Shown in pieces: positions 7,649 to 50,253 of a stretch of DNA of 64,000 nt (position 1 is its first letter; each line of letters starts with the position of its first letter). Made by a program: the position numbers and the translations under genes. Source of the DNA: Ophioderma brevispina (lineage: Eukaryota; Echinodermata; Ophiuroidea; Amphilepidida; Ophiodermatidae). The notes below the pieces were generated by a model that was given only the letters and a program-made list of their open reading frames with translations, ran no database searches and had not been told where the DNA came from. The stretch spans positions 89,108-153,107 of the forward strand of contig JAMKCH010058417.1 in NCBI GenBank assembly GCA_023653785.1. The letters run 5' to 3'.

Positions 7649-8230
7649 TTAAAATTATGCTATCAGTATAAAAAGTGTTATGGCACATTTTTGAAGAGCG
7701 CCCCCCATTTTCAAAATTTGCTATTTTTGGCACAGTTACGTGGTAATGTCAGGAAACTATACCTGCGAACGGAGAATGCTTAAAAATGCGTATTTATCAC
7801 AAAATAGCGATTTTGTAAATAGAATGGGATCCAGATGGACTTAACGGCAAGAGGCTGAAATGCTACGTTTATGTCCGTCCATGATGAAATAGTGCCACGT
7901 CGACGAAAATAAATCTAACGTGACTGCCCAACCTATTAAAACAACCAATGGATGAGCGTAGACACGTACATGCGCTTTCCGCTATTTCACATGGAATGGC
8001 CGTTTCAAGCAGGCGTTGAATTATTATCGGGGATCCCCGATAATAATTATTCTAGTACAAAATCCTTCGTTTGTGACAACATACAATTTTCGAGCTTAAC
8101 CATCACAGGGTATAGTTTACTAGCCAGTTACAAATGCCAACCGGGTAAAAATCTCCAATTTTTGAAACAAAAATTGGGGCGCCTTCAAAAAAATGTGCTT
8201 ATAGTGCTTTAAGTATTCGTAATTATTAAT
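7649..8230. mobile_element. Foldback (long inverted repeat) element
   Basis: Long imperfect arms, about 7649-7830 and 8045-8230, are reverse complements. For example, ATGGCACATTTTTGAAG near 7680 pairs with the sequence near 8175-8205, and GAAACTATACC pairs with GGTATAGTTT. Neither arm encodes a protein. This is the structure of a non-autonomous foldback/MITE. A 30-bp perfect palindrome lies at the inner edge of the right arm. Confidence 0.65.
8019..8048. repeat. 30-bp perfect palindrome
   Basis: The left half AATTATTATCGGGGA is followed directly by its exact reverse complement, with no spacer and a BamHI site at the centre. It lies inside the foldback element at 7649-8230. Confidence 0.95.
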
Positions 8231-14544: not shown

Positions 14545-15225
14545 ACCCACATACGACCTCGTCCTCGTTCATTATTCATACCAAAATAAATCAGAAATAA
14601 CCCTTCCAGTGAAGTTGATTCTGTCAACGCCACGGTTTTGGAATAAGAAAATATTCCATGACACGATATTTTTAAAATCCTAATTTTTCGTCAAGATTTC
14701 GCTTTTACGTGTTCAACCAATGGTGACGTCTGAAATTTTGATTTCTTGGCCGCCTCCCCTGTTCAGACTGAAGGGGAAAGGTGATTAGCGCCACCACTTG
14801 TGACGCTATAATAATCGGGGTATGACCGAGCTGCTTGATTTATTTGGCATTGGGGATTTCCAAAGGTAATTTTGTGAACTGCTACGTGCATTTACTATAG
14901 TCATCTCTGTCCTCAGTTCATACTTACAAAATCTCCTCATAATCCTTGTTCAATACATCTTAAGAATATCATGAAATTAATGAATCACTTCAAAATCCTC
15001 GTGTAGTGGATAACCCGCGTACAAATAGTGTAATTGTTCCAATAAGGTTCATTTAGATTTAAATACGATATTCGTGACCAGGCCTAGTCCTTAGTCAAGT
15101 TTGTGTGTAACCGTTCGATAATGTGTAGTGCCCCTCCTTAAAAAAAAACAGCACTCGGGTTACGCCGGAAGTTGAGGGGCCGTTTTTGGAATTCGCTATT
15201 GCTGTTAGGTGGCATGTCCTAGTAC
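14545..15225 (+). repeat. Dispersed repeat block, copy 1
   Basis: This block matches two separated segments downstream, 17812-18030 and about 19100-19570. Shared landmarks include ACGACCTCGTCCTCGTT, GGAAATAACCC (TCAGAAATAACCC here), GCATTGGGGATTTCCAA, CGTGACCAGGCCT and GTGTGTAACCGTTCGATA. No protein is recognised. Confidence 0.75.
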
Positions 15226-19099: not shown

Positions 19100-19575
19100 G
19101 TTGCTATAGCGCCCTCTATAGTTTGTAACAACGCTCCTGCAGGGGGGTAGGACACGATCTGCTCGATTTGCATTGGGGGATTTCCAACTTAATCTGTGGC
19201 CTGCTCGTGCATTTACTATGGCAGTCTCGGTCCCCAATGACATTAAAAAATCATCTCTTAAAACCCTTTGTTCAAAAGATCTTAGTAATATCATGATAAA
19301 TTATAAAAATTATTTACTTCAATCCGTCGGGGTTAGTGGATTAACCCCGCTGCAAAATAGTGTAATTTCCAATATCGGTCATTTAGATTTAAATATTCGT
19401 GACCAGGCCTGTCTTTAGTCAAATCTGTGTGTAACCGTTCGATATTCGTCAGAGCGCCCTCCTACCGTTAAGTCTTCCAAACAGACTGCATCCCAGAAGT
19501 TGATGCCGTTTTGAATTTTTTGCTGTTGCGGTTAGGATTGGCATGTCCTACCCCCCCCCCCCCCCCCCCCCCCGC
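19100..19575 (+). repeat. Dispersed repeat block, copy 2, right part
   Basis: Matches 14800-15225 (GCATTGGGGGATTTCCAA, CGTGACCAGGCCTGTC, GTGTGTAACCGTTCGATA, GGCATGTCCTA). It ends in a run of more than 20 C at about 19551-19573. The frame at 19173-19418 is not preserved in copy 1, so it is not treated as a gene. Confidence 0.75.
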
Positions 19576-19764: not shown

Positions 19765-20575
19765 GTTTCAAATTCTCATAAAGGTTTCAAATTCTCATGA
19801 AAGATTTCAAAATCTCATAATGGTTCAGGTTTAAAATTTTCATAGATTTCAAATTATCACAAAGGTTTAAAATCTTCATAAAGGTTTCAAATTCTCATAA
19901 AGGTTTAAAATTCTCATAAAGGTTTCATATCCTTATAAAGGTTTCAAATCATAAAGGTTTCAAATTCTCATAAAGGTTTCAAATCCTCATAAAGGTTTCA
20001 TAATCTTTAAAGTTTTCAAATCCTCATAAAGGTTTCTTATTCTTATTCATTGGACGGGTAACAAGTCTTGAACAGTAGGCATACAATCTTAACTGGTAGA
20101 CAATGTTTTTATTTTGAAGCATACTATACATTCAGCAATTAGCCCGAGGTTGCTCTGGCTATTCCCGCTACGAAGAGCCCTACTATCTCTCCTCTCCATG
20201 GATTTGGAGGTAGGTACGGACGACGTTCAACGCTACGGAACGAGCTAACTATGCATAGGCTAGTATAAATAATATCTGATAATGTTTTTCAAATTCTCTC
20301 TCATAAAGGTTTCAATTCTCATAAAGGTTTAAAATTCTCATAAAGGTTTTGAATTCTCATAAAGGTTTCATATCCTTATAAAGGTTTCAAATCTTTAGAA
20401 AGGTTTCATAATCTTTAAAGTTTTCAAATCCTCATAAAGGTTTCAAATCATAAAGGTTTCAAATTCTCATAAAGGTTTCAAATCCTCAAAGAGGTTTCAA
20501 ATTCTCATAAAGGCTTCAAATTCTGATAAGGTTTAAAATCTTCATAATAATTTAAATTTTCGTGAAGTTTTCATA
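19765..20575 (+). repeat. AT-rich minisatellite, TCATAAAGGTTTCAAATTC
   Basis: Dozens of 17-20 bp units based on TCATAAAGGTTTCAAATTC run from about 19765 to 20040 and from about 20285 to 20575. The gap at 20040-20285 is unrelated sequence. Unit length and sequence vary, and there are no unique spacers, so it is not a CRISPR array. Confidence 0.9.
20040..20285 (-). mobile_element. Insertion splitting the minisatellite
   Basis: About 245 bp of non-repeat sequence interrupts the array. It contains AGCCCGAGGTTGCTCTGGCT, the exact complement of a segment near 23660-23679 and again near 31350-31370, so it belongs to a dispersed family inserted in the opposite orientation. Confidence 0.55.
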
Positions 20576-20937
20576 CCTTATTTATGAAGATTTGAGATAG
20601 AACAACGAGGCGCAGCCGTCGGCTGTTTTATTTTTTTATACTTTGAAGGAATAAGCAGCGATTTGCTGATCCGAAGCATCGAAAAAAAATCATTAATCTT
20701 GTTTTGCGAGGAACATTGAACATCAAGCTCTGATCTAATATCAGATACCTTTTAAGTAAAATAGTGAGTAAACTTATTATTGGCAATGTCACATTTAGTT
20801 AAACACAGGAAATTACTGCTATACCAACTGGCTTCCTATGTCGTGTAAACAAAAACCCCAAGTTCACACTGGCTCCATGAGAGGCCATGGAGTTGGTCCT
20901 TTCTTTCACTATACTTATAGCACCACCACAATGTTTT

Positions 20938-21129
20938 TACACCCTAAAACATATTTTCAACAAAGGGGTCATTTTTGACCCCGTTTTGAGTCAACTATGC
21001 ACCGACTAAAATGGGGTCAAAATGTTGACCACTTTTGTGGTCAAAAACGTGTGAAATGACCCTTTTTGTGGTCGTAATTTTGACCCCATTTTTAGTCGGT
21101 GCATAGTTGACTTGGCGTTTTAGTGTGTA
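20938..21129. mobile_element. Small foldback MITE, 192 bp
   Basis: The ends TACACCCTAAAAC and GTTTTAGTGTGTA are inverse with one mismatch. Inner arms at 20989-21022 and 21078-21112 (AGTCAACTATGCACCGACTA and complement) pair as well. The interior repeats GGGGTCA/TGACCCC. Non-coding. Confidence 0.8.
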
Positions 21130-23692
21130 CCATTTTTCATTACCAAATACCTGAGTATTGTTGTTTTGCAATTAAAACAATGTCTGATATACCTTAATTG
21201 ACCCAAGTGTTAGCCTTTCACCAGGGCGGTGCGCTTTATTTTTAGTTCCTTTTTCCTTTTTAACAATATTTTAGTATGTCACATGGTTCTATTTGATTAT
21301 TTGTTTCAGTGGCCTCTTTAACATTAGTCACATTTCATCTAGTGAAAGAAAGGCCCAACTCCAACTCCAAAAATATTCTGTAGTGTACCATGAAAATGCA
21401 AAAATTGATATCATTTATATTATGATATTATGCCTTTACTATAAAGTTCAATATGAGTTTTGTGATTTCCTGTGCAAGTCAATAAAAAAGTATAATTATC
21501 ATTTTTTCCCTTTATTCAATTGGTGTTGGGTCCATCTTTCAATGAGGTATTGCATATACATTTGTCGACCAATTAATTAGTCTATGTTGGATAATTAAAA
21601 ATTTTACCCATTTTTGGTGTTGCTATATTTGAGCCAATCCGAACAGATCGGGGGGGGGGGCACTCATATATGAAAGTGACGTACCTGCTCCTCCTATCAA
21701 GGGCTATCAGTGACAGATTTCTTGCAAAAAAAGTGTTCCTCAGTGTAGAGGATAATACATGGGGGCATTTCGGTGTGAAAGAATAACTGGACATTTGGTG
21801 TGGAGGCTGAAGTGAATGCCAAAGTGAATTAAAACACTTTGGTGGCTATAGAATAATCCCAACTGATGTATAAAATCCCCTACTCCTTTTTACCACAAAA
21901 TACAGGATGGACCACAACCACTGATCTCTAAACAGATCAGTGACCAAACCATAAGTGTATTGAGGAAAACAATGGTTGTCATTCAGTGTCAGATCCCTAA
22001 AATCTGGGGCATTGGGGTGTGAGACTTTTTACAAAAGGGGTCATCTGGGGACAGGCTGAAAGAAGTTAAGACACGAAATAGGCCCTATCGTATAATCCTC
22101 TTGTATATGCGTTTCCAAATAAGTAGTAAGACAATTTACGTGCTTGTGAACATATTTTAGTGTTCTTTCTAATAGCATTTTTTTTAATCAGTGGCCTGAA
22201 GTCCAAACTACTCCAAACTGAACACGGAAGTGTAGGGAAATAGTTTTATTAACAATCCCCTGTTGCGCGAACCAAGATTATTACATGATCACTCTTGTAA
22301 GCCGGTCCCTAACAAAAACAACCTAATGAATTCCCGGCCGTTCCTTCTGGCTCTATGTTAATGACATTGGCTCAAGACAAACCACATCATCCCTGCACAT
22401 CCTCGTAAGTTTGTCCTTTGACCCAGGAAACTTTTGCCAGTGCCTTTGCGTGAAGGGGAAAGTGTAGTGCTTGTGTTTTCAAGCCAACAGTGCGACGTTT
22501 TCACTCTTCATGTTGGCTCAAATTTCCCCGAATGTTGCTGGATGATATAGTCTACAGTACGACAACAAAATGTCGTTAACAAGAACGTTTTAATACGACA
22601 TGCGCCGACGGATTACAGCTGCTATTTTGGCAGGGACTACCGGCTTCTTTTGACGCCGACGATTCAGGTAAAAAATGTAGCTACTGAACGCTTCGGTGAT
22701 CGCTCTGAATGGATGGTGCACTGCTTGTTCGGATAGCTCGACAAATCAAATAATGAGATGTGTACAGTCCTTGTGCTATGCATCCCGTAACCTCTAGGCG
22801 CCATTCATCCATGCGTTATTTTTTTGGCCAAGATTGAAAGGGTCATTTTGTCCAATAATATATGTTTTTAATTATTCTAGCGTCCTGTATCGATGCAGAA
22901 AATTCAAGCCCCAAGGTCAGGTCTCCTGTCCCGTGTTGCACTGACTGTAGCTCGTTGCACGTAGCGTTGCACTCGTCCGTACCTACCTCCTACAACGCAA
23001 CGTGCCTTTCTCTATTTGAAAACGGGAATTGTGCGCAGCCGATCCGTGCGTAATAAGCATCCAGAAGCAGTATAAATACAGCACTTATTGAAAATATTTA
23101 CCTTTGATGTGGTCTAATTATTTTTATATTATACACCCACTTGTTTCCTAGGGGGGGGGGGGGGGGGGGGGGACGGATTTTCCATTCATGGCTAAAATCT
23201 TATGATTTTTGAAACGGTATTTCTTAACCGTTAAAAATCCCATTTAAACAGAGGCATCGCCCCACTAGATCATTGAGTCCGCCCTGATTGTTCCCGGTTT
23301 TTTTTTCTTTAGAATCGGCACGAGCACGCTTATTTTCGCTGATTACCAATAATTACGAACAACACCCGAAGTCATGAAGTGGAGAGACTGTGTTGAGCTT
23401 CAATTTTTCTATCACTTCGTGCCCTTTTAGGCCCATTTCACGATAGCATGAGCTGTGCACCGTTGTATTTTTAAATCAGCTAGAGGGATCTTAGAACATC
23501 AAGTTTTTCATATATGCACGGATTCGTGATAGAGGACCGTAGTATACCAAAATTCTTGACTTTGTGCATTTTTTTTTTAATATTGTTTGATCACGTTTTT
23601 TTTACTATACTGCCTCTCAGGCTTTTGTATGAAGATAGTGGGGCTATCGTAGCGGAAAGCCAGAGCAACCTCGGGCTACACTGACTGACCAC

Positions 23693-23772
23693 AATTTTTT
23701 TTTTTGGTTTTTTTTTTGGGTTTTTTTTTTTTTTTTTTTTTTATTTTTGTTTTTTTTTTTTTTTTTTTTTTG
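23693..23772. repeat. Poly-T-rich tract
   Basis: Long runs of T interrupted by G and A. The minus-strand Lys-rich frame across it is not a gene. Confidence 0.9.
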
Positions 23773-25875
23773 CATGCAACACATAAGGGCCCAAAAAAAA
23801 AAATTGTTTGATTGTCCTCGTCGACGCCCCTAATTTTGGAATTGGGAAAAAGTTTTTTTTTCTTTGACTGTGCAAGACTACCGACCCTAATTTGTGTAAA
23901 ATTCCTTAAAAAGTTTTTTTTTTTTTTCAATTTTAACTTTCAAAAATGTAAAAAAAAATGATGTGTTTACAGTTTTCTATCATGTTAGTTGGGTTTCATA
24001 TATGTAACAAAGATGCATTTTTGAGTAAGACAACTGATTTTGTGTTTGATTAAATTATTAATTAATACAACAAACATGTTTCAATAACATTTGCTATTGA
24101 TATTTAAAACAAAAAAAGAAACAAAAAAAGTTTTCCGACCGACCGACCCCACTAAAAAAGTCAGGAAAAAGAATTTATATTCTGCACAGGCTACAATTCG
24201 GCAACGTTAACGAATAACCGCATTTTAAAGGTGCGAATTTTTAAGTGGTGGCAGAATACAAATTCTCCCAAAAGTCATCTATGGACAATGCAAACAATTT
24301 TTTTTTGGCCTAAGGTTTATCGCTAATCGAACCGCAATGCGTCATGGGGACGAAAAAGGGGCAAGAGCGCCCGCACACGGCCGCTGTCACTTTCCAGCCC
24401 GTTTGTTTACATAGACTAAATACGTAATCTGCTTGGCGAATGCTTAAAAATCTTTACTCTTTCACTCTTTTAGGACTTTTTTATCACCCTAAGTGGCGAT
24501 CATTTCGCTGTTTTTGATTTGTTATAATGATCGGAGATACCCTAAGGAATATATGGGGTATTCTTTTATGTTCGCAACTTTATGACGCTTCATCTTGGCG
24601 TGTTGTCGAAGTGTTTTACATCAATCTACATTGACACATTACATCATTTGCTGGCGAATTGTAATTACTTTAGTACTTTTTATCATGTTAGGTGGCGATC
24701 ATTGTGCTGTTCTTCAACTTCTTGGTTTGTAATATACTAATAATGATCGGAGAATATCCTGAAGAGATATATGGTTATTTTGTTGAGTGTAACTTTTTAA
24801 CGAAGCTTCATCTGGCGTATTTTGCGAAGCATATGCCTAAGGCTGTAAGCTTTGCTGGGGATTATTGTGGGTCTCCAGTACACTTGTATTATGCCTGTTT
24901 TATGTAAATAAAAGTAGTAAACTGAATATTGGATAACATTATGTGACTTTAAGCGATTTTTAATAACGATGTTGTTAAAATTCGTAGGCCGATTAGCAAT
25001 AAGCGCAATAACTTAGAAGTCAGTCGAAAAAATTAAAAGAAACATAGTGTTAGTTTTACTGTCCCAACTCTCGTTTTTAAGTAAAAATGGTAGGCCTATA
25101 TAGGCTCGACAATATTGTTCAATATATGTAAAACACAAACTAGCAGTATCCCCCCCCCCTTTAATTATAAGGAAAAACTAGCCGGGTATCAGGTAATTTG
25201 AAATTAAAATCCTTAAAAGAGAAAGGATAGGCAAACAGAAAGGACTCGGTTTTCCTGGGTTTAATCATAGGTTATGGGGGATTAGTGATCTTTATATTAT
25301 AGTGGAATGGTAATATTTCTTTAATTGTCGTAGCTTGTTGTGGTTGTGGTTATAACTTTTCCTTGTCTGGGTAAATTCTGAAAAAGGGCCTTTAGATAGG
25401 GCCCCACTTTCGGCCAATTATGTGCCGTTATGTACCGATAGGGAGGCGAAGCAAGCCAACTCAAAATAATGAATGCTGATCATATCATTGCTATCGCGTA
25501 GGAAATTCTATGACTAAATAAGCTATATCGAGTGAGCAATATTTCCCTAATATTGGGGCTCATTAGTGAATATCAAATTGGTATTTAAATTTATCAAAAC
25601 TTGTACAATCTATTTAGTGATCAAATTTGTAGATTTTGTTAGGTTTGGAAGGCGCCGAGGGGATTGCGACTTCATAGATACCTGCGTAGTTTCTAACGTA
25701 AACACGAGCGGGCGATTGTAGATAGACACTTCCGGGTTCGTGTTGGCCCCTTTTTCGATCCCATCATGCTTTGTGGTGGTGCGCCCTCTGTTGATATTTA
25801 CCGATAATTAGGATTATGGTCTATGCAAGTGAAATAGCCGGGGGAGCGGACATAGTTCCCAATAATGTAACTTGC

Positions 25876-26056
25876 CCACCTATACCTTTAAACATTGGAC
25901 GGTATCTTGGCGTCAAAGTTAGGCTATGAGTTGAGTTCATAAATAAGGCTCCCTGGTGCAATCATTGTGTGAAGTCAACTTACAAGACGCTTGCTTAAAA
26001 CATTACCGAAAAATCCTCTGAAGCTAAATCAAGCATGTGGTTGATGTATCGTAATC
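25876..26056 (+). repeat. Direct repeat internal to copy 1, first
   Basis: Shares CTTGCCCACCTATACCTTTA, GAGTTCATAAATAAGGCTC and AAATCAAGCATGTGGTTGAT with 27636-27826 and, in copy 2, with 35385-35563. The 1.75-kb spacing is separate from the 7.5-kb duplication. Confidence 0.8.
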
Positions 26057-27635
26057 CCTCACAGATTGTATCCTTACTCAGCAACATAATCAACATAAAA
26101 CAATACAAAATTGTCCCTCTTTGAACGTCAAGTTGCTCACCACTAATGCCAGATTTGTTGATGTTGAACTTAGCACTTCCGCTATACGAGAGGCAAAGTT
26201 CAAGGGTCACACGGTGTGCGAAAAAAAAGCAAAAACAACAAATAGAAGCCCAATAATCGATATACTTCCAGTAGCAAAGTGAGCGGGATTGTTTTGCGCA
26301 ATACCGTATTTGGACCCAAGATCAAGTGTTACGCATCCTCACACGCAGAAATCGCTTCCTACGATGGAAGTATATACCTTATACCTGGACCCCGGCTTTG
26401 ACCCCCTGCTGGACCCCAAAAACAGCTTCAATTACAGTGGTTTCAAACAACCACAGTTAGCGTGGATTAGCTTTGGACTGGCTCCGAATATTTAAAAATT
26501 TGGAGAGTACCGACGAAAGTAGTACACAAAATTGATGGAAAAAAAAGATATCACCTTCTTTGACAGATTTTCTAAGACTTCAAACAATATAGCAGTGATG
26601 TTGTAAACGGTTTTTGAACGTTGTTGAAAGATACTCTCAGCAAAAAGTGAGACCAGAGAGCCTGTAAGTAATAGCCTTGATTAGAGGTATATTGATAATG
26701 GTCATCTCTTATATCTGAAGTCAAAAACTGATACTTCCGTGGCAGGACCTGAGATACTGCTCAGTGAATGACATATTGTTGATGAAAGACATAAATCTCA
26801 GGCGTGCTAGCAGGACTTGGAGCGGACATACGGGAGTTCAACAAAATCTGCTTGGCAACGGGATGGCAACAACGTGCGTAATTCGATGCGCGCTGAGCGC
26901 ATAGTTCATCGGTGTGCAGTGAATAAGCAATTTTGCGCAAGTTGTTTTCACCGCGATTCGGGGATTCCCTCGGCTTTCCCTTTGTTGTCACGCGATGTTG
27001 TGGACAGCCCTCCGGATCTATAGTGCAATGACCACCCATTTTATTTTTTTCATCACAGTAGCTTCACTACACTCAAAGTCAAAACTTATTATCAAATTAA
27101 GGTGCTTGTTCCGACTGTCTTTGGGATTAACCGGAAGCAGTATAAATTGGATTATCAGATGAAAGGCCATTTTTTCTTCATTGTGGTCCTGAAATTTAAG
27201 ACTTTCTTCAAATCCATTTCTTCTCAAGATATAGATAAAAAAAAGCCGTTTTAGTGGTTTAAACCATCCATTTTTAGCACTGTAGTGAATAGGGGCGTGC
27301 ACTATGCATTATCTGTCTAGCATCAAAACCGCAAGTATGTTTCCCAAGGTACTTCATAGTCGTTTTGCTTGTACAAGTGCCAGGTCTCATACAAGTAGAG
27401 AAACGAAGAGACAAAAAAATCGGAACAAGCACCTTTAAGGCTTAGCTTCTAATGAGAGAATACAAGTTGGCAGACGTAGGGAAACCCAATTGATTAAAAA
27501 ACATATGTTCCATAAAAATGAAAAAATATGCCTTATCAGCATGGTCAAACTGTTATGTACTGTTTTCAACAAACATGCAAACACTTATGTTTGTGATTGC
27601 CGCAATTCTCATCTACACCTAGTTCAAATAATTGT

Positions 27636-27826
27636 AACTTGCCAACCTATACCTTTTTATATTGGACGGATTTGGCGTCAAGTTACAATCATGTATGAGT
27701 TTGAGTTCATAGATAAGGCTCACTGGTGCAACATGTGAAGTCAACTTACAAAATGCTGCTTTAAACTTACTGAAAACCTTCTGACGTTAAATCAAGCATG
27801 TGGTTGATGTTATAGTTATTCCCCCA
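27636..27826 (+). repeat. Direct repeat internal to copy 1, second
   Basis: Partner of 25876-26056, with scattered small indels. Non-coding. Confidence 0.8.
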
Positions 27827-28209
27827 ACAGTAGGCAGTTCAATCCCCCGGTATGTATATCGACAGTGACCGAAACCACTGCACACAGACTTGTGCGTGGG
27901 TCTCACCAACTCTTGGACTTATTTTGAGTTTCCCCGAAAACAAAGCATGTTAGCAAAATAATGCTGAGACAGATTCAGCCATCCTGCAAATATAACATTG
28001 CAGATATCACTTCTGTCACATTTCCGTAACGTATAGAGCAAACATGCTCATGTTTTTCGTTAAGGGCAAAGTATCCATCGATTGGTGATTTCCAGAAGTG
28101 TCCTCTTTGCTGCTTGCCGTGTGCATTGTCCTATTGAAAATACACGCTCTAAATATAGCCTTGGCACTCGGCACCACTTTCGAAGGGCTCCGTAAATATC
28201 CGAAACTAT

Positions 28210-28590
28210 ACAGGGTGAGTCAAAAAAACTTGACCCGGGGTGTGTCCGCCATTTTGAGTTTTAAATAAAATATATTCTAACATATGTGCGTTATAATCGC
28301 AAAGCCTATTTCAACCCCACACACCACCTATTTCAACTTAAAGCCCCAAAGATAATTCCAATCGAATAAGTACAGGCCGAGCTACAGTCGTTTGAATCTA
28401 GTGGTCCGCTTTTCCCCCATCCACCGATTCCCATTTGAACGCACGGCGCTGTTCATTTTAATGTGAATCCGTGGACAGAGCAGAAAACCGACTACTTGAT
28501 TCAAACGACTGTAACTCGGTCTATACCTAACCGATGTGAATGATCTTTGCAACAAATTACAGATAATGAACAAAGCTTTCAGATGATACC
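28210..28590 (+). mobile_element. DNA element with ACAGGGTGAGT end, truncated
   Basis: Starts with ACAGGGTGAGTC-AAAAAA and contains an internal inverted pair (GCTACAGTCGTTTGAAT at 28381 and its near complement at about 28498). Its right end is missing because the junction with duplicate copy 2 falls here. The complete form is at 35949-36384. Confidence 0.75.
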
Positions 28591-30479
28591 ACAATGTCCT
28601 GATATACTTAATTGACCCAAGTTGTTTTTAGCCTTTCCACACCAGTGGCTGGGTGCGGCTTTATTGTTTTTAGTTCCTTTTTCCTTTTAAACAATATTTT
28701 TTTAGTATTTCCCAGGGTTCTACTTTTGATTATTTGTTCATGCCTCTTTTAAAACATTAGTCACATTTCATCTAGTGCAAACGAAAAGGCCCCACTCCAA
28801 CTCCAAAAATATTCTGTAGGTCCAGCGGGCGGCTAAAGAAAAGCAAAAAAACAGGGGGGAAGGTCAAAGAAGGAAAAATAAATCATTTATATTTGAATAT
28901 TATGCCTTTACTATAAAGTTCAATTGAGTTTTGTGATTCCTGTGCAGTCAATAAACGATAATAATTATTCTTTTTTCCCTTTTTCCCCTTGGTTTTGGTC
29001 CATCTTTCAATGAGGTAGTGCATATACTTTGTCGACCATTAATTATTCCCTATTTGATAATTAACAATTTTCCCATTTTTTGGTGTTGCTATATTTGAGC
29101 CAATCGCGAAACAATCGGGGGGGGTGGGCACTCAGATATGAAAGTGTACACGTACCCTGCTCCCGCCTAATCACGGGCTATCAGTTGAAATTTCCTTTGC
29201 AAAAAAAGTTCTTCAGGGTAAGGAAATAAAAATGGGGGCATTCGGTGTGAAAGAGAATAAACGGACATTTGGTGTGGAGGCTGAAGTGATGCCAATGTGA
29301 ATTAAACCTTTGGTGGCTATAAATAATCCCACTGATTAGTAAAAATCCCCCTACTCCTTTTGTTACACACAATGACAGGATTGACCAAAACACTGAGCTC
29401 TACAACAGATCATTGACAAAACAAATAAGTTATTGAGCAAAAAGGGGGTCATTCATGTCAGTCCTAAAATCTGGGGCCTTGGTGTGAGGACTTTTAAAAG
29501 GGGGTCACGGTGACACATGAAAGAATTAGACACAAATAGGCCTATCGTATAATCATCTTGTAAAGTATGCGTTTCCAAATAGTTGTAAGCTCAATTTACG
29601 GTGCTTTGTGAACTATTTAGTGTCTTTCTAGAGCATTTTTTTTAATCCAGTGGCCTGAAAGTCAAACCCACTCCCAAACCTGAACATGAAGTGTATGACT
29701 ATTTTATTAGACAATCCCTGTGGCGCGAACCTAAGATTCTTTACATGATCACTCTTGTAAGCCGGTCCCACCAAAAACAACCTAATGATATGCCCGCGTT
29801 CCTTTCGGCTCTATTTTAATGACAATTTGCTCAAGACAACCACATCATCCCTGCACATCATCGTAATTTTGTCCTTTTGACCCCGGAAACTTTCCATGCC
29901 TTTGCGTGAAGGTAGTTAGTTGCGTGTTTTCACGCCAACAAGTGCGACGTTTCACTCTCATTTGGCTTCAAATTTCCCCGAATGTTGCGGATGATATAGT
30001 CTACGTAACTAACAAAAAATGTCTTTAACAAGAACGTTATACGACATGCACACGGATTACAGCTCGCTATTTGTCAGGGGACTACCGGCTTCTTTGGACG
30101 CCGACAGTCAGTTAAAAATGTAGCTACTGAACGCTTCGGTGATCGCTCGAATTGATGGGCACTGCTTGTTCGTATAGCTCGACAAATCAAATCATGAGAT
30201 GTGTACATTGCCTTGTGCTATGCATACCGTAACCTCTAGCGCCATTCATCCATCGTTATTTTGCAAATATTGAAAGGGTCTTTTGTCCCAATAAATTAAA
30301 TGTTTTACATTATTCTAGAGTCCTGTATTATTCAAAAATCAGAGCCGCGGTCTAAGGTCAGGTATCCTTCCCGTGGTGGGTGCGTGCAGCCCATAGGACC
30401 TTGTTTTTTATTGTTTGACTCGTGGCACGTAGCGTTGCACAGGTTCGTCCGACCACCTCCTACATTGGCGCTATGGTGA

Positions 30480-31215
30480 GAGCCTAGCTGTTATCTGGGT
30501 AGAGTGTGTCTGTTATGTGTGTGGTTTTGTAAACCTACGTGCCTTTTTCTCTTCTTGTGGGGCATCTTGGTTGGTTGGCTCTTAAGTAACCTCTCTCTGT
30601 CGTGGGTGCGCACCATCGCTGCGGATAACAAAAGCCAGGAAGGCCAGAGAAAGACAGGGGCACGGAGAAAAAGAGGGTCTCTGCGGGGGGGGGGGGGGGG
30701 GAGGTGAAGGGCCAAGGTGAGGGGGGAGAGGAGAGGGAGCGCACGGGGGGGGGGCCGGACGGGAGGCCAGGCAGGGCAAACAATCGGAGGGGAGTGGGTG
30801 GAACTAGGGGTGCGAACCGGGGAAAGCCCCAAGGGAAACAGAGGGCGCGGGCCCCACCGACTTGGCAGGGGGGTCTGTGAGTTGTGCGCCCAGGAGGGGG
30901 TGGGGGGTTGGGACCTCCCGGAGGGGCGTGAAAGGAGGCGGTTGACTGGCGTGTTGTTGTGGGTGAGTGTCAATGGCGGCGGAGGGCGGCGGAGGTGGTA
31001 GTGTCCATGGAGGCGAACATACACCGCGGAAGCAGGGGGAGGGGAACGGACCGGGGGGGGGGGGCGTTCTAGTGTGCGAGCACGCTGCGGGCCCGGTTGA
31101 GGAAGGCCAACAGGGAACGAGGGAACATGAGCGGGGGCACCGGGGGGGGGATGGTGAAAAGCGCGAGAGGATCGAGACAGCAAGGGGGGCAGAGAGGCAA
31201 CGGAATGTCGTGTGA
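30480..31215. other. G-rich scrambled stretch in copy 2
   Basis: It lies where copy 1 has 23000-23560. It is strongly G-rich on the plus strand with runs of G, and the homology to copy 1 resumes before (GTAGCGTTGCAC) and after (GCCTCTCAG). It gives long Pro/Arg-rich minus-strand frames that are not genes. Confidence 0.7.
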
Positions 31216-33059
31216 TAGAAGGTGAGCCGTAGTATGACCAATTTCTTGACTTGGCACATAGGGTGGACTGTGGATCCCGTTGTTTTTTACTATCCTGCCT
31301 CTCAGCTTTGTAGAAGATAGGTAGGGGGCTATCGTAGAGCGGAAAAGCCAGAGCAACCTCGGGCTACACTGACGTACCACATTGCAGCCACCCAAAAGGC
31401 CCAAAAAAACATTGTTATTGATTGTCCGCAGTCCGACCGACACCTACTTTGTGGAAATGGGAAAAGTTTTTTTTTCCTTTTACTGGGTTCAAAAGAATAC
31501 CGACCCTAATTGTGGAAATTCTTAAAAGGTTTTTTTTTTTTTTTTCAATTTTAACGTTCACAAAGGTAAAAAAAATGATGTTTAAACAGTTCTTACAGTT
31601 ATTGTTTTCAATAATGTACAAAGAATGCATTTTGAGTAAGGAAATCAACTTTGATTTGTAGGTTTGATGAAATCCTTATGAATTAATAACAAACAACATG
31701 TTTCAATACAAAGTTGCTATTGATATTTAAAAAAAAAAAAAAAAAAACAAAGTTTTCGGGCGACCGACTCAGTCCAAGTAAAAAAAGGTCAGGAAAGAAT
31801 TTAGTATTCCGCACATACGAATTCGGCAACGTTCACGGAATAACCGCAATGTTAAAGGTGCCGATTTTAAGTGGTGGCAGAATACTAAATTCATCCCAAA
31901 AGTCCTCTTGGACAATCAAAACATTTTTTTTTTGCCTAAGGTTTATCGCTAATCGGAACCGGCATGCGTCATGGGTCCGAAAAAGGGGCAGAGCGCCGCA
32001 CACGGCCGCTGTCACTTTCCAGCCCGTTTGTTTACACATAGAACGAACTAAATACGTAATCTGCTTGGCGAATGCTTAAAATCTTACTCTTTCACGACGT
32101 TAGGATCTTTTTATCACCCTAAGTGGCGATCGTTTCGCTGTTTTTGATTGTTATAAGGATTCGGAGATACCTAAAAGGAATAATGGGTATTCTTTTAGTT
32201 TAATCAACTTTAATTACGCTTCATCTTGGCGTTGTTTGTGTTCGAAGTCTTTTACAATCAATCTACATTGACCCAGGACATCATTTGCTTGGGAATGGTA
32301 AATTTCCTTTTAGTAACGTTGTAATCATTTGTGGCGATCATTGTGCTGTTCTTCACTTCTTGGTTTGTATATACTAATAATATCAGATATCCGGAAGAGT
32401 ATATAGGGTCATTTTGTTAGTGTTTACCTTTTTCACAGAGCTTCATCTGGCGTATTTTGCGAAGCATATCACTAGGCTGGTAGCTGCTGCTTGGGGGATT
32501 ATTGTGGGTCTTCATCATTGTATATGCCCTGTTTATGTAAAACAACGTAGCTAAAATGAATATTGAATAACATTATGTGACTTTAAGACGATTTTTTAAT
32601 AACGTGTAAAATTCGTAGGCTATTAGCAATAACTGCAATAACTTAAAGTCAGTCCCTGAAATTAAAGAAACAGAGTGTTTATTTTAACTGTCCCAACTAT
32701 AGTTTTTAATTAGAAATGTGTAGGCCTATATAGGCTCGACAAATAATTGTTCAATATATTTTTAACAACTAGCGAGATATCCAAATTAATTATAAGGAAA
32801 CTAGCGGGTATCACAAGGTACTTTGCAATAAAATCCCTTAAAAGAGAAAGGGGATAGTCCAAACCGCAAGGACTAACTCGGTTTTTTTCCTGGGTTATCG
32901 TCATTTATGGGGCTTATGTGATATTTATAGATAGTGGAATGGTAATATTTCTTTTATTGTCGATATTGTCTGGTTGGGTGTTTTTGTTGTTTGTGTTTTG
33001 GTTTTATTTGTCTGGTGTTTGTCGGCTGTTTTGTTTTTTGTCTGCTGTTGTGAAAATTC

Positions 33060-34130
33060 TGAAAGGTGCGTTATGAGGATGAGGGCCCCCCACTGTCGTC
33101 AAAGGTTTGTATGTTGGGTCCGTTAAGGAGCTGCTCTCGTTATAGTGGTGAGGTGCTTGTAGAGTCGCCACTCACATATGTATTGATCTATCGGATAATA
33201 ATTCGTCCATGGGGGTTTGTGCTGTTAGTACGCTAGTGCGTTATATTGCATAGGATAAAGGTAGCTAGATCGAGAGGGCAAGAGGCCCTATATGGGGGCT
33301 CATTAGAATGAAAACAATGGGGCCAGTGGGAGTTGGTTAGTGTAGAAGGGGTTGTTTGTGGTGGGGGGGGGGGGTTGTGTGACACGTGGGTAACAATGAG
33401 CTGTGTCGGTGACAATGGGGGGTGTAAAACGAACATGGTGGAGGTTTCAGGGAAGGGCCGCTCGAGGGGGAGCCGACGCCGAGCTACAGCGTAGTGCCGA
33501 GACGTAAACAACAGCGGCGATGGGAAGAGCCCACGGGCGTCTGGGGGCGGTTGGCCCCGGGCCCCCAGGTCTGTTGGCGTGTTGGCGGCCAGCATCGGTG
33601 GCGACAACTACACGGGGGGGGGAGCGAGGCCCGCGGGGGGTAGACGTACCGAGGCGAGATGGTCAGGCAAGGGAATAGCCGAGCGGACAGATGCAGAAGA
33701 GGAACTCCACCTCTGAGACCTTGAGACCAGGGACGGGGGTGGGTTTGATCTCGGAGGTCATATCTGACAATTAGGCGAGAGTCGGGACAGTGCATAAAGA
33801 ATAGCCGCACTGGGGGATTGCAAAGCAGGAATCCAATTACAGAGAGACGCTGCGGAAAAACGGCCGGAAAACACCGCGGACGCTAAAGCAGCAATGGGGA
33901 GGAGAGAAGGCCCGGTGGGGCACAGAGGGTAGCGCGGACAGGCAGCAATCAATAAGCAACGAACAGAAAAGTGGCCGTTGAGCGTCAATTGCCTCACTAA
34001 GGCCAGAGTGGGTGTGGAAGGGGAAAATGGAGCACGTCCGGCGAAGCGAGAGCAAAGGCAAGGGGGGCCCGTGGGCGAAAAAGCAGCCCACGCGAATACG
34101 TCCGAGTCGCTGACGATTTTGTTTTGCGCA
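33060..34130. other. G-rich scrambled stretch in copy 2
   Basis: Takes the place of copy 1 about 25380-26285. Small islands of homology remain, such as GGGGCTCATTAG, while the surroundings are G-rich and unlike anything else in the window. Confidence 0.7.
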
Positions 34131-35948
34131 AAACAAAATATGGAACCCAAGATCAGTGTTTTACGCATACTGTCACAGCAGAAAAATCGATCCTACACTG
34201 GAATAGATACCTTATAACCTTGACCCCCCCGGTTGACCCCTCTGCTTGACCCACAACAGCTTTCACTTTAAGTGGTTCCAAAAACCACAGGTAGAGTTGA
34301 AGCTTTGGACTTAGGCTCCAAATAAAATTTGGACCCAAAATTGATGGAAAAATATCACCTTTGACAGATTTTTCTAGACTTTCAACAATTATGCAGTGAA
34401 TGTAAACAGTTTGAAACAACTTCTCAGCAAAAGTGAGACCAGAGTCTGTAAGTAATAGCCTGATTAGAGGTATTTGAAATGTCATCTCTTTATCTGAATC
34501 AAACTGATACTTTCCGTTGCAGGACCTGAGATCTGATCCGTGAATGACATCTTGTGTTAAATGCATGAATCTCAGGTCGTGCTAGCAGACTTGGAGCGGA
34601 TGACATCCGGAGTTAAACAAAATCTGCTTGGCAACGGCAGGAGACAACGTGCGTAATTCATGCGCGCTGCGCGCATATGTCATACGTGTGCTGAAGTTTA
34701 AGCACTTTGCGCAATTTTGTTTTCACCGCGATACGGGGATTCCCTAGGCTTCCCCTTTGTTTCACCGCGATGTGACAGCACCGCCCCTGGCTATTAAGTG
34801 CAGGTGACCACCCATTTTTCATTTTTATCAAGTAGCTTCACTACACTAAGTCAACTATAATATCAAATTTAAAGTGCTTGTTTTCCGACGTCTTTGGGAT
34901 TAACCGGAAGTACTATAAATTTTGATATCAGATGAAAGGTCCATATTTTCTCAGTGTTGTCCTTCGGGAATTTCAGCTTTCAAATCCATTCTTTCCCAAT
35001 ATATAGATAAATAACTGCCGTTTTAGTGGTTAACCATCAATATGAGCACTGTAGTGAATAGGGCGTTGCACTATGCATATCGTGGTTATCATCAAACCGC
35101 AAGGTCTGTTTCCCACGTACTTCATAGTCGGTGTGTACAAGTCAGGCTCCATATCAAGTAGAGAACACTATAGACAAAAATCGAACAAGGCACCTTAAGG
35201 CTAGCTCTATGAAGAAATCCAGTGGCATAGTGAAAACCAAATTGATAAAAAACATATGCTTCCATTAAAATTAAAAATCTGCCTTATCAAGCATGTCAAC
35301 TGTTCATGTACTGTTTTCAACAAACATCAAATTATGTTGTGTGCGCATCGCGATCTACCACCAGTTCCAATTAATTGTAACTTGCCACCTATCCCTTTAA
35401 TATTGGCATTTAGCTTGGCGTCGTTCAATCCCAGGCTATGATTTGAAGTTCATACATAAGGCTCAATGGTGCAATCATGTGAAGCCCTTACACAATAGAT
35501 GCTGCTTAAAAACTTACTGAAACACTTCTGCGCTAAATCAAGCATGTGGTTGATTATAGGTTTTCCCCCCCAACAGTAGGCATTCATCCCCCTGTATTAC
35601 TCGCGTGACCGAAACCGCTGCCAACAGACTTGTGCGGGGGTTCTCACCAACTCTTGAATTATTTTGCGTTTTCCCCCTGAAAACAAAGCATGTGCAAAAT
35701 AATGCTGCGACAGAATCATCCACTGCCATCCTTCAAATATAGCTTTGCATGATATCTTCTGTCACATTTCCGTAAACGGTATAGAGAAACATGTCTTTTT
35801 CTTTAAGGGCAAGTACCATCTATGGGGTGATTGTCAAGAAGTTTGGCCTCGTTGCTGCTGCAGTGTGCATGTCCTTTGAAATACACACGCGAATAATCCT
35901 TGGCACTCGCACCACTTTCTGATGTCTCCGTAAAATATCTGAAAATAT

Positions 35949-36384
35949 ACAGGTGAGGCAAAAACTGACCCGTTTGGTCGCCATTTTGAGTTTTTTCAAT
36001 AAAATATATCTCACATATGTGGTATCAAATCGAAAAGCCTTTTCATATCTTTTAATTTACTGCAAAGATATTCCAATCGGTAAGTAACCGAGCTACATCC
36101 TTTTGAATCTGTGGTCCGCTTTCCCCCATCTCACAGATTCCCATTTGAACGCACGACTGGTTCATTTTAGTGTGCATCCGTGGACAGAGCAGAAAACCGA
36201 CTACTTGATTCAACGACTGTAACTCGGTCTATACCTAACCCGATGTGAATGATCCTTGCAACAAATTACAGATAATGAACAAAGCTTTCCAATGATACCA
36301 CATATGTTAGATAATGTTTGCTTGAAAATTCAAAATGAAAAACATTAAAAAAAAAAAAGTCAAGTTTTTGTTTACTCACCCTGT
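35949..36384 (+). mobile_element. Complete ACAGGGTGAGT-ended DNA element
   Basis: The left end ACAGGTGAG-GCAAAAACTGAC and right end GTCAAGTTTTTG-TTTACTCACCCTGT are inverse. The better left end at 28210 confirms ACAGGGTGAGTCAAAAA. Size is about 436 bp. It is non-coding with an internal palindrome, as in Tc1/mariner-related MITEs; that family link is inferred from the ends only. Confidence 0.75.
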
Positions 36385-38187
36385 GATTTTGAATGAAAAG
36401 TGGAAGGAATCCTCCGCTCGCTGGTGATTGGTGGGATCACTTCGCCGATTGGATTTTACAAAGTTCAGATGATCAGCTGTTCAGGTCCATATTTGATATT
36501 TTCCAAATTTACCGTGTGACCAAATGCTATGGATTTTTAAGTTTTTAGCAGTCCTTTTTCCGTACGAAGTATATCATTTTTTTTTGCAATAATATCAAGT
36601 TATTAGAATTCTTTACATCTGAAAGAATACATATTTTTTTTCCCGAAGTAATTTTGTGCAAATTCTCCGCGGAAAATAAAAGAAATACTGTGGAAAATCT
36701 TTTCCATGGCAATGCTGTATCACCATCCCTCCCCTTGACTTTGACACTCTTGAGTTTTGACAATGAACGCAGCAACGCTTTGGGTTAGGTTTTCAACGCA
36801 TTTTTTTCACTTTCTAGTGCGTTTTAAAGAAGTCGCTCTCTCATTTCAATAAATAAAGATCCTAAGGAGTATGTTGTTTGTGAGGATGTATACGGTAAAT
36901 AAGTCCACGTATCACATATGTTATTAATTGGGGGGGGGGTGAACAAGCTCTTCTGCTTGACTTGCATTGTGGTACGCAGATCCCCCGTTTATTCTTGCAT
37001 TTACGAAAGATTTTTTTCAACCAAAGATCGTTCCAGAAAGACTTTTTGAGTTCATTCTTCATGCACATGACTTAAAACTTTCAAAGTGGGGTGCAATAAT
37101 CCTTTGAATAATTTCGTAGGCAATATCACAGAAAAAAATGCATTCTTGTCGAGTTCATTACTAATTTGATTGTGTAGTATTAAACATCAGTAGCTGTTGC
37201 AGAAGGAGCTCTCTCCCCCCCTCATCTACACACCTCAATAGAGTGTCCGAGTGGCAATAGTCCGGATTTTGAAGACTTGGGTCATGGATATTTAAATGTA
37301 CCACACTTAATGAAGTTTGGCCGTTGCGACTTTGGGGGGAAGGGGGAAGCAGGGAAATAGCTAATAATTAATTAGAGGTTATACACACAAATTGACTGAT
37401 GCTAAGTTTTATTGTGCATCGTGTTATAGTACACCTTTTTAAAGAAAAATATCAAATTTTAAGAAAATATTGCAATTAGTTTATCAAAAATGCTTATGAT
37501 GGGGCTTATTCCTGATAATAGCTAATAGTTCATTATGGGTTATACGCACGTGACAAGTTTTAATATGTATCCAATCTTTTCCCTGTGTAATACTTATACA
37601 CCATTTTGGAAATTGTATATTTTTCGCATTTTTAGGAAAAATATGCAATTAGTATGAAAATACGCAAAGGAAGTAGAAAACTACTACTATTACATAAGAG
37701 ACATGCATCAGGTGATTTTCTACCACTTTTGGAAGTTCTACATGTACAGAGATTGAGATATTGTTAATTTTCTACCAAATGCCCTTAAAAATCAATGTGG
37801 TGGGGAATGTACCTTTTTGAATCGTCCTTGCAAATTCATAGTACCAAGATAGATGTCGCTGTAATGAGATGGAGAAACGGCGTATATCAGGAGATTCGGA
37901 AATTGGCTGCGGGATCGGGGAGAGTTGAAATATAGGGATTATGAACAGAAAGAGGCTAGTTTGATGGGCCATAAAGAAATAAGAAATAAAAGATTTGACC
38001 TTTGACAATTGGTCCCCTTTCTTCAATGTACGAGTACTAAAATCAATAGCTCATCGCCGCAACCGTATATCCGAGTGTGAAATTCAAATGTTTACGGTGC
38101 TGGCAGTTGACCCCTCATAATTGGTGGGTAGTTTAAACCTCTGCATCAATAGAATTCCACCTGACGTGCCTACCACAGTGCCCGCCA
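36385..38187. other. Intergenic; two diverged 140-bp repeats
   Basis: At about 37375-37495 and 37512-37670 two diverged copies share TAGCTAATA, GGTTATAC and ATATGCAATTAGT-like blocks. Otherwise nothing is recognised. Confidence 0.45.
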
Positions 38188-38853
38188 ACCAGGATGTATC
38201 CTTCCATCAGCAACATATCAAACATAACAATAAAATTGTCCTTATAAATCGTAAAGTTTGCCTCACCTATGCCAGATTTGTTGATGTTGAAAAATTAGCA
38301 CTTCCGCTATCTACGAGAGCATATTCAAGGGTCACATGGTGTGCGAAAAATCAAGCCCATTGATATACTTCCACTCGCAGTGAGCGATTGTCCTTGCGCA
38401 AAACCGGATATGGACCCAAAATCAAGTGTTAAGCATACTCATACACAGAAACGCTCCCTACGACTGGAAGTATATACCTTATACCTTGAGCCCCTGTTGA
38501 CCCAAACCGCATCACTTACTTTGTTCAAAAACTCACCGTAGAGTTATGCTTTGGACGTATTTAGGTTCCAATAGACGTTGGAATACCCGAAATTGATGGA
38601 AACATATACACCTTTGACAGATTTTTCTAAGACTTTGACAATTATAGCAGTGATGGAAACGTTGGAAAGATACTTCGTAGCAAAAGGGAGACCAAAGCCT
38701 ACAGGTAAGTAATAGCCTGATTAGAGGTACTTGAAATGTCATCTCTTATATCTGAAGTCAAACTGATACTTCCATTGCAGGACCTGAGATACTGATCAGT
38801 GAATGACATATTGTTGAAAGACATGAATCTCAGGTCGTGCTAGCAGGACTAAT
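38188..38853 (+). repeat. Third, partial copy of the duplicated segment
   Basis: Matches copy 1 at about 26069-26815 and, for its right part, copy 2 up to about 34590. Shared landmarks are GCCAGATTTGTTGATGTTGA, AAGTATATACCTTATACCT and CGTGCTAGCAGGACT. The match stops sharply at 38853, where copies 1 and 2 continue TTGGAGCGG. Confidence 0.85.
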
Positions 38854-38887: not shown

Positions 38888-39483
38888 CCGAAAATGCAAT
38901 GCATTTCGGTTAGATGCAATGCATTTAACCGAATGAAATGCAATGCATTTCGGTTAGATATTTCAAACAACTAAACTGGGATTTGTACACTGGTTTAGTG
39001 ATCGAACTAGTACCGTTTACGAAGCCGGTATTTCTGAACGGGAACAATGGACCAACTTATGTGCTCTTCGAAATTCCTTTATAGAAAGTATGTGCAGTTT
39101 CCTAAACGGCTCCAGTGACAGTAGTAAAGCTACAGTAGCAATTCTGTGAATAGTAACTATATGTCGAATTGTTGGTGTAACATGCCGAAAATGCAATGAT
39201 TTCGGTAGATTGCAATTGCATCTAACCGATATGAAATGCAAGCATTTGGTTAGATATTTCAAAAGCAACAAACTGGGATTTGTAAACTGGTTTTTAGTGA
39301 TCGAACTGTACGTTACGAAAGCCGGGTATTTCTGAACGGGAAACATGGACCCAACTTAGGTGCTCTTCGAAATTCCTTATAGAAAGTATGATTGACAGTT
39401 TCTAAAGGCCTCCAGTGAAAGTAGTAAAGCTCAGTAGCAATTCTGTGATAGTAACTATATGTCGAATTGTTGTGTTGTAACAT
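38888..39483 (+). repeat. Tandem pair, 297-bp unit
   Basis: Unit 1 is 38888-39184 and unit 2 is 39185-39483, with a third start at 39484. Both contain AAATGCAATG, ACTGGGATTTGTA, TATTTCTGAACGGGAA and AGTAACTATATGTCGAATTG. Unit 1 carries extra ATGCAATGCAT palindromes. Confidence 0.9.
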
Positions 39484-39499
39484 TGCCGACAAATGCAAT

Positions 39500-40329
39500 G
39501 AATGAAATACTACACACATGCACACGCTACAGTCTCACGTTGATCAATTGTCGCTACTGCTTTTGTTTACCATCCAGGATTACGCTGTCAAAATTTGCAT
39601 TTGAATGTTGCACATAGTGCAAATCGTATTGTTGTTGCTGCGCAGAGTTAAAATTAGCATGCAGGCACGTTGGTACAGTGAAGTGGTGATACCCGAGGCG
39701 CCGCCATTGGAAATACAATTTTTTTTTCAAAACAGAAATTTGAACAATTAGAGTACACATCTTTCTAAATTCTTGAAAGTCTTAACGTAACACTCGATTA
39801 CTGAAAATCTTTTATTGATAAAATTCACTGCGTCTCGTGTACAGAATGACTTGCACTTCTCATCTAGAGAATCTGCAATGCTAAACCTGTGATGTCATTG
39901 TCTTAGCACAGCGAGGTTGCTTGGTGACCGTTTCATGCTGTCCCTGCTTGTAGCGCTGCAATATTCGCAATCACGTAAGCTCCAAACAGCATGTTGAACG
40001 AACGTGAAAATTGCCAACGGGGATCGGCGGCCTGTCACAGTCGATACGTCATAGAGCAGGTCATAGAGCGTCTGTTTCCCGATACCCTCGAGAGAATGTA
40101 AACACATAGCCGTTGCGCGCTGCTGCGATAGGATCCCGGATAGAAGCCGACGAAAATTGCTGATTTTTCCATTCAAAAGTGAGTAATCGCATTGATAGTC
40201 ATGACCGCAAAGTGCCTTAGTTAACATTAATCCCTGTAATATTGCTCAATGGGGCATATGTGATTTAACGTCTGCATGCATAGTTGCCTCTTGAAATGTG
40301 CATTTCCTGTGCTAGCTGGAATAGGAATT
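39500..40329. other. Intergenic, unassigned
   Basis: Moderately GC-rich with open minus-strand frames (39554-39760 and 39895-40227) that match no family I recognise. No convincing splice sites or promoter. Confidence 0.3.
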
Positions 40330-41010
40330 TAGGATATTGCCCTTGCAACGGTAATTGCAGACCGGGAGGTACAACCCTCGTCCCAATAATGGTGATACAC
40401 ATTTGACATTTATTTTAACAGTGGTCATGATCCATACACTGAAGTGTAGGCAAAAAGTGATGTGGTAATGTGGTTAGCCAGTTTTAACCCACCTACCAAT
40501 TTTAGAGAAAAATAAAAGCCTCCAAATCCATAATTTACCTGGATTTTATCTTTGAGTGGACACTCTATGTGTTCTAGTAGCATAATAAAAGATTTGTCTC
40601 AAAATGATGGCAAAAGTATGAAATTTCTGATAAATTTGATTGTCCAAATCTGACCAGCACCAAACTCCTTCAAAAAGTAATATGTAAAGAAAGCAAAATA
40701 AAATCACATGAAAACAATTACCTCCTGCATGTTCAGTCTTAAAAACTGGATTAGAAGAGATAGTGAATGATATACTATGAGAGGATTGATATTATATAAT
40801 CATTTGGGTTGCATAATGCTGCTTGAAACTGATTGGAGTTCTGAGTGCAGTAGAATTGTTAAATGGCTAACCAATTACACATAACTTTTTGTGACTACAC
40901 ATTCAATGATATGATAATGACCAATGTTAAAATAAATGTCAAATGTGTAGTCACAATTATTGGGACTAGGTACAACCCTACCGTTGCGGTACCGAAACTA
41001 GTTTGCACCA
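40330..41010. mobile_element. Foldback element, 100-bp arms
   Basis: The left arm, about 40338-40435, is the reverse complement of about 40915-41010. Shared blocks are ACATTTGACATTTATTTTAA, ATTATTGGGAC, TACAACCCT and ACCGTTGC. The spacer is non-coding. Confidence 0.75.
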
Positions 41011-48631: not shown

Positions 48632-49575
48632 CAGCGAGATATGGGCGAGTTACTGTTGCACCAATGGGCGAGTGAATGTTAGGACCATCTGGCGAGTTAC
48701 TGTTGGACCATTGGGCGAGTTACGGTTGGGACCAATTGGCGAGTTATGATTAGAACAATGGTTTTGTTTAATGATTTATTGTTTTAATGATTACTTTATC
48801 TATTTTCTTCATTTTAATACAAAAGGGTAGTGGAAAAAAACAAATTGGAAAAATTATTTTTAATACGTTAAAACAGTAATAACAGTAACAGTAACTCGCC
48901 AATGGTAAACAGAACTCGCCCAATGATCTAACAGTAACTCGCCCATGGTCGAACAGTAACTCGTTCCCTTCAGTGGCCTAACAGTAACTCGACCACTGAC
49001 TAACAGGAAAACTCGCCCCACCCATTGGCCTACCAGTAACTCGCCCACTGCTCCAACAGTAAATTAAAAAAAAATTTTTTATTTTGTGGGGGCTAACAGT
49101 ATTAGCCCACACGCCCTGCTGTTGGATCTTATGTTGCCTTCATCCTACCCTATAGTGCTACTCCTGAGACCATTTCAGCAAGTGACGTTTCAGCCTATAA
49201 TACAATTTGGTACAGTCTAACATTAACTCGCCCAATGGTCTAACATTAACTCGCCCATTGTTCTAAAAGTAACTCGCCCAATGATAGTAACTCGCCCAAT
49301 GGTATAACAGTATCTCGCCCATTGGTCCAACTGTAACTCGCCCATTGGTCTAACCGTAACTCGCCCATTGTCTAACAGTAACTCACCATTGTCGAAACAG
49401 TAACTCGCCCATTGGGTTTAACAGTACTCGCCATTGGTCTAACAGTAACTCGCCAACTGGTCTAACAGTAACTCGCCCATGGTCTAACATTAACTCGCAC
49501 CACATAACTTGACGATTTATCCATCCCACAATGATCATCTTTTGTACCAATCAACTAGTAACTCGTGGGGCCATG
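48632..49575. repeat. Head-to-head inverted minisatellite, 20-24 bp unit
   Basis: Units of GGGCGAGTTACTGTTGGACC run forward at about 48632-48765. Units of the complement (AACAGTAACTCGCCCATTGG) run at about 48884-49070 and about 49210-49500. The two orientations face each other across about 120 bp of AT-rich sequence (48766-48883). Units vary by substitutions and 1-3 bp indels, and there are no spacers of constant length, so it is not CRISPR. Confidence 0.9.
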
Positions 49576-49775
49576 TTGGGTCGATTGACTATGTCCTCAT
49601 CTTGTCTCAACTTGTTCTGTCATATTGTCCTGTCCTGTCCTGTCCAATTCATTTAATATTACATGTATATTGTTAGGTTGGGGCAGGAGTCATGCTCAAA
49701 GTTCAGTAGGACTTATTTTGGCCTCTCCTGCATTTGTTTTCATGTCACTTCAATTTATGACTGTAAAATTATTCT

Positions 49776-50114: not shown

Positions 50115-50253
50115 AGAATTTGTTATTTGTAATCGTAAATTATAATGTATTGGCTGATGGAAAATGATGATTACAACTATTTGAAATATATAATAAACAT
50201 ACAATGTTGTACTCAATCTAAATGCTTGTCTTTTCTCTCCTTAACTTTTGTAG

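Follow-up and report, generated by a model that had tools for sequence, protein, structure and literature searches.

Among described systems, the false duplications reported by the Vertebrate Genomes Project are closest to the locus analysed here. In the parts of PMC8081667 and PMC9516828 available to us, a homotype false duplication is a same-template duplicate that differs by sequencing error, is about one read long and lies in one scaffold, a gap between the copies being a listed characteristic (PMC9516828). A heterotype false duplication sets two parental haplotypes in a row, likewise as a duplicate in one scaffold. The errors of raw long reads have also been profiled. An excerpt of PMC7671305 describes PacBio reads as dominated by one-base indels, with raised A<->C and G<->T substitutions, polyG among the over-represented six-mers and an error of 13%; RS II reads show a strong insertion excess and ONT reads raised transitions, on which the accessible part of a nanopore study (PMC8486125) concurs. 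A search of the literature by name for the Sequel substitution spectrum gave nothing useful among the papers listed.

The window, i.e. the whole stretch of DNA that was analysed, covers the final 64 kb of a contig of 153,107 bases (contig positions 89108-153107) and most likely derives from the published Ophioderma brevispinum draft, a PacBio/Illumina hybrid with a mitogenome of 15,831. The draft was built with MaSuRCA, Arrow, and quickmerge with ABySS, and was polished with Arrow at ~51x. Its reads comprise about 23 million PacBio reads and 159 Gb, which by division gives ~6.9 kb each, and the paper also states ~10 kb.

An earlier note had described two colinear copies in the window that differ mostly by one-base indels, and self-BLAST bore this out by pairing 21177-21383 with 28591-28819, 21400-22935 with 28874-30375, 23589-23693 with 31273-31381, 23770-25350 with 31382-32979 and 26289-28597 with 34119-36307. 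The coordinates it had given for the copies were correct within a few bases (see table). The copies were aligned pairwise with gap-tolerant scoring, and the alignment columns at copy-1 positions 22851-23800 and 25300-26300, which hold the G-rich blocks, were removed before counting. This left 4762 matches and 264 mismatches (5026 aligned bases); indel events numbered 553, of which 421 involved a single base. Column identity was 81.8% without the G-rich blocks and 73.7% with them. Copy 2 exceeds copy 1 by 297 bases, an excess that the G-rich blocks more than cover (861 vs 621 and 1131 vs 931 bases).

Table. Features of the tandem pair and its surroundings (window positions). For the G-rich blocks, G content and z refer to the block cores, with copy-1 counterparts as the comparison for G and local-composition shuffles as the reference for homology to copy 1.
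Feature	Position	Strand	Basis and remarks
Palindromic dispersed repeat, clean-looking, just left of copy 1	20938..21131	.	39 outside copies
Copy 1, noisy	21178..28590	+	7413 bp; self-BLAST and gap openings against outside repeat copies
New junction, unit end to unit start	28585..28596	+	About 3 shared bases (ACA); sequence context
Copy 2, noisy	28591..36300	+	7710 bp; self-BLAST and gap openings against outside repeat copies
G-rich block 1	30375..31270	+	Putative error burst over template at about 22935-23589; G 46% vs 21%, z 7.8
G-rich block 2	32980..34118	+	Putative error burst over template at about 25350-26289; G 38% vs 20%, z 15.1
Palindromic dispersed repeat, complete over the right edge of copy 2	35945..36384	.	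Self-BLAST and outside matches
Right flank, noise goes on past copy 2	36385..38846	+	Gap openings against outside copies

Repeats in the window were compared with their relatives elsewhere in the assembly, and pairs of these outside copies served as the natural standard. Outside loci were dropped if less than 85-90% of the tested stretch was covered (in the 1.8-kb family 14 of 19 were kept). The outside copies of a 470-bp repeat differ from each other by 15 gap openings/kb (18 copies, 153 pairs), while the same repeat compared with them showed 74 gap openings/kb in copy 1 and 75 in copy 2. The other stretches gave a similar picture, with 83, 87 and 74 gap openings/kb at 21655, 25850 and 27617 in copy 1 (natural 37, 31 and 39) and 121 and 100 at 29125 and 35363 in copy 2 (natural 36 and 38). 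The load was raised in all four stretches tested in copy 1 (74-87 vs natural 15-39) and in all three tested in copy 2 (75-121 vs natural 15-38), and the overall gap load was 1.9 to 5x natural. This was also seen with the smallest gap rate per kb, by which the window lay above every outside copy in 4/4 families compared (window vs highest outside copy: 67 vs 22 for the 470-bp repeat, 37 vs 12 for 420 bp, 20 vs 15 for 205 bp and 91 vs 79 for 1.8 kb). At 24322-25340, copy 1 is 88% identical to a repeat of a different contig and 82% identical to copy 2, as is expected if each window copy carries its own errors. The division into an ordinary copy 1 and a raw copy 2, drawn in the earlier note, did not hold, since copy 1 is noisy too.

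The noise is not limited to the pair. On the right, 9/9 blocks of 200 bp between 36385 and 38184 had 89-129 gap openings/kb (natural 41-67), and a third window copy of the 470-bp repeat (38388-38846) had 42 (natural 15). On the left, 41 gap openings/kb were found at 19142-19557 and 106 at 14842-15138, with a natural value of 8 for both. Masking copy 2, which had been advised earlier, is insufficient on its own, because copy 1 is noisy and noise occurs on both sides of the interval. To the left of copy 1, the repeat at 20938-21131 has 92-96% identity to 39 outside copies (40 scored, the best of 1301 candidates; gaps not countable there) and looks clean, noise is found from 21655 on, and 19142-19557 is noisy too. 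The clean-looking repeat followed by the noisy stretch at 21655-22060 would put a switch from clean to noisy sequence close to where the duplication begins.

The window was further scanned against best relatives, with 262,550 bases of outside sequence as reference and a different gap scoring. Several stretches looked clean by this measure: 3261-3424 (0 gaps/164), 38996-39199 (1/204), 40858-40971 (0/114) and 45194-45360 (1/168). Other stretches outside the pair, such as 7653-8163 (34/540) and 49774-50122 (23/381), looked gappy even against their best relative, these being values without a natural standard. As a separate observation, the 1.8-kb repeat of the right flank has 14 outside copies, of which 5 also show a raised smallest gap load (40-79/kb), and uncorrected segments may therefore occur elsewhere in the assembly. 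A unit of ~310 bp is present twice, at 38888-39199 and 39185-39501, the two being 4 substitutions and 30 gap openings apart. The first unit is the cleaner one (26 vs 103 gap openings/kb, natural 11-12), and a 204-bp part of the unit is found once at full length in 11/11 outside loci, one of which has an additional 40-base match. This pair may be a second small false duplication.

The substitutions between the copies have a distinct spectrum, as A<->C or G<->T changes account for 173/264 and transitions for 45/264 (17%). When outside copies are compared with each other, A<->C/G<->T changes make up 11-34% of substitutions and transitions 34-74%, and for the 470-bp repeat such comparisons give 0.43 indels for each substitution and a transition share of 63%. 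The spectrum between the copies is thus not that of natural decay, with a transition share below the whole outside range, and the low number of transitions also differs from the raw ONT profile. The raised A<->C/G<->T changes together with the few transitions indicate PacBio, as judged from the excerpt of PMC7671305. In line with that profile, one-base indels dominate and A<->C and G<->T prevail between the copies, and polyG belongs to the shared features. Unlike it, the error would be ~9% per copy if the 18% difference is shared equally, which is under the 13% reported in the same excerpt. The RS II insertion excess was not found in either copy; insertions were about as frequent as deletions. 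With natural ones included, the inserted/deleted gap openings per kb were 55/19, 34/40, 54/33 and 41/42 in copy 1 and 37/38, 50/51 and 42/79 in copy 2. The missing excess may be due to thin consensus or to a later chemistry. Substitutions private to the window (against >=90% of outside copies) were counted in three shared stretches per copy, and 14/34 were A<->C/G<->T and 15/34 transitions. In these small numbers, natural changes included, the A<->C/G<->T bias is weakly visible.

Two stretches of copy 2 had been called G-rich nonsense where copy 1 reads normally. The G-rich blocks do exist, with the G contents given in the table, but "nonsense" is too strong a word, as their cores retain residual homology to copy 1. 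The full blocks scored z 11.2 and 21.6 against shuffles, the reverse-complement controls scoring -1.5 and -0.5. Divided into pieces, block 1 gave z 1.9 and 8.3 and block 2 gave 5.9, -1.2 and 9.2, and within the block 2 core the left half scored -0.9 and the right half 12.0. Because of these uneven scores, parts of the blocks are regarded as lacking detectable homology to copy 1. The 9-mers common to the blocks and copy 1 are mostly in the same order, save poly-G matches and a few that are off-order, and the alignments of outside repeat copies reach into block 2, starting at 33740. Given this partial colinear homology, the blocks are read as bursts of insertion-rich, G-biased error that would, at least partly, lie over the same template. 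The possibility of a biological G-rich element or satellite was rejected, since a genome search with block 1 found solely itself and one 81-base match and both blocks are homologous to copy 1. Poly-G tracts of 22 bases (23151-23172) and 17 bases (30685-30701) are roughly colinear between the copies. If the template does contain a G tract there, it may have contributed to the burst of errors in copy 2.

The sole new junction of the pair is 28590/28591, which truncates a 440-bp palindromic repeat by about its last 80 bp. Among the best outside matches listed for this repeat, 39/39 pass the place equivalent to 36300 and 32/39 reach 36384 or beyond, which means that copy 2 enters the right flank naturally and that copy 1 is the abruptly ended one. 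Two palindromic dispersed repeat families, of ~440 and ~194 bp, are present in the window, each with at least 39 outside copies.

Taken together, both copies are noisy and represent the same template within error, the differences between them have a PacBio-like spectrum and the bursts are partly homologous to the template. We therefore consider it likely that the tandem duplication is false, a product of hybrid long-read assembly and not of biology. The true locus would hold one unit of ~7.4 kb. The assembly would leave clean-looking sequence near 21.13-21.18 kb and enter an uncorrected PacBio read that continues up to 28590, where a second uncorrected read would restart at the same template position and run through 36300 into the right flank. 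These would be two separate reads that overlap across the whole unit and were probably joined end to end by the assembler, the overlap being left unmerged because of read errors (18% of columns differ, in addition to the two G-rich bursts in the second read). If the species assignment is right, the unit lengths of the two copies are near the mean read size of the draft (~6.9 kb; nominally ~10 kb), as in a duplicate of about read length. A missed adapter in a read yields inverted copies, and a read artefact of that type was rejected because the copies are direct.

Several observations count against this reading. Among them are the balance of inserted and deleted bases, unlike RS II reads, and the weak A<->C/G<->T bias of the substitutions private to the window. 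Arrow polishing at the depth used for the draft should have removed such noise, and MaSuRCA mega-reads consist of super-read sequence only, with no raw PacBio sequence, according to the accessible part of PMC5437942. The assembly analysed has 2.51 Gb in 65,844 contigs vs 2.68 Gb in 88,538 scaffolds as published. There is no N at the junction or anywhere in the window, and the noise at 19142-19557 and 14842-15138 shows that its onset is not solely at copy 1.

There are three alternatives. An old natural duplication, decayed to ~82% identity and with G-rich insertions gained by copy 2, would take the low identity and the block differences at face value. It is already contradicted by the spectrum, as 553 indel events vs 264 substitutions and 17% transitions contrast with the indel ratio and transition share of the outside 470-bp copies, and the supposed insertions are homologous to copy 1; we regard it as extremely improbable. 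In a second alternative, two parental haplotypes stand in a row, each seen via poor reads. If all 45 transitions were natural, the divergence could be up to about 1.2-2.6% (0.9% divided by a share of 0.34-0.74), and this is ordinary heterozygosity for a marine invertebrate. Natural divergence is however not needed when the transition share lies below that of outside-copy comparisons, and this explanation appears unlikely. Compared with heterotype false duplications, as far as the available parts of PMC8081667 and PMC9516828 describe them, the pair is alike in being a duplicate in one scaffold and unlike in that its differences need no natural divergence, though up to about 2.6% is possible. 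Alternatively, the duplication could be real and very recent, so that near-identical natural copies look 18% different through uncorrected reads. The copies do agree within error (45 transitions/5026 aligned bases), and break repair could also give a single junction of this kind, placed within a palindromic repeat and sharing ~3 bases. A unit of about one read and a left edge near the switch from clean to noisy sequence would then be needless coincidences, and we find it improbable that breakage in the arm of the 440-bp palindromic repeat gave a real, near-identical 7.4-kb duplication under long-read error.

A false tandem duplication from uncorrected reads thus accounts best for the locus, and it resembles the homotype class. 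Like homotype false duplications, in the available text of PMC8081667 and PMC9516828, it is a same-template error duplicate of about read length in one scaffold, and unlike them it has no N gap between the copies and both copies are of low quality. Its differences are those of sequencing error on one template, as judged from spectrum and indel load, with a small natural divergence being possible. We describe it as homotype-like and do not file it as a formal member, since the gap between the copies is absent. Of the interpretation in the earlier note, the origin in uncorrected long-read sequence was supported by the dominance of indels among the differences, the surplus of A<->C/G<->T changes, the bursts of G, the read-length unit and the PacBio hybrid draft from which the window most likely comes, and a single true copy is supported as probable by the same evidence. 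The clean copy 1 and the restriction of the noise to the claimed interval were not; likewise, on the observational side, the colinear pair and the G-rich blocks were confirmed and the ordinary copy 1 and the "nonsense" blocks were not. For users of the draft this is a warning that contigs can contain uncorrected read segments and false tandem copies that no N marks. A check that requires no reads is to set dispersed repeats against their other copies in the assembly and to examine both indel load and A<->C/G<->T share. The duplication should carry no biological claim.

Other parts of the genome were searched for the unit and its edges. Within 28591-30300, the portions specific to the unit (the first 523 bases and the last 775) gave no second locus (40 of 138 candidates scored), in favour of the false-duplication reading; 20560-21660 outside its repeat parts matched this contig alone (40 candidates scored), and of 24000-25340 the first ~300 bases matched this contig alone, the remainder being a repeat family (40 candidates scored). 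Genes were rejected as the point of the duplication, as just 1/75 scanned ORFs has a Pfam match and it lies outside the region. The scan covered 75 of 120 stop-to-stop ORFs with >=75 codons, after 45 had been set aside (those of the G-rich blocks, low-complexity ones, overlapping ones and part of the shortest). In the window, no tRNA was found by ARAGORN with bacterial settings and no Rfam family reached the gathering score.

On the minus strand at 1064-1786, an open frame of 241 codons encodes a near-complete fibrinogen C-terminal domain (PF00147, E 2e-67) and represents a fibrinogen-related exon. Arrays of a ~23-base unit lie in opposite orientations at 48641-48761 and 48886-49502. Elsewhere in the assembly, the mitochondrial contig (16,816 bases) has the appearance of an untrimmed circle, its first 150 bases recurring at +15,831 (126/126 25-mers), a period equal to the published O. 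brevispinum mitogenome length. Its COX1 reads sensibly with the echinoderm mitochondrial code, where AAA as Asn restores conserved positions.
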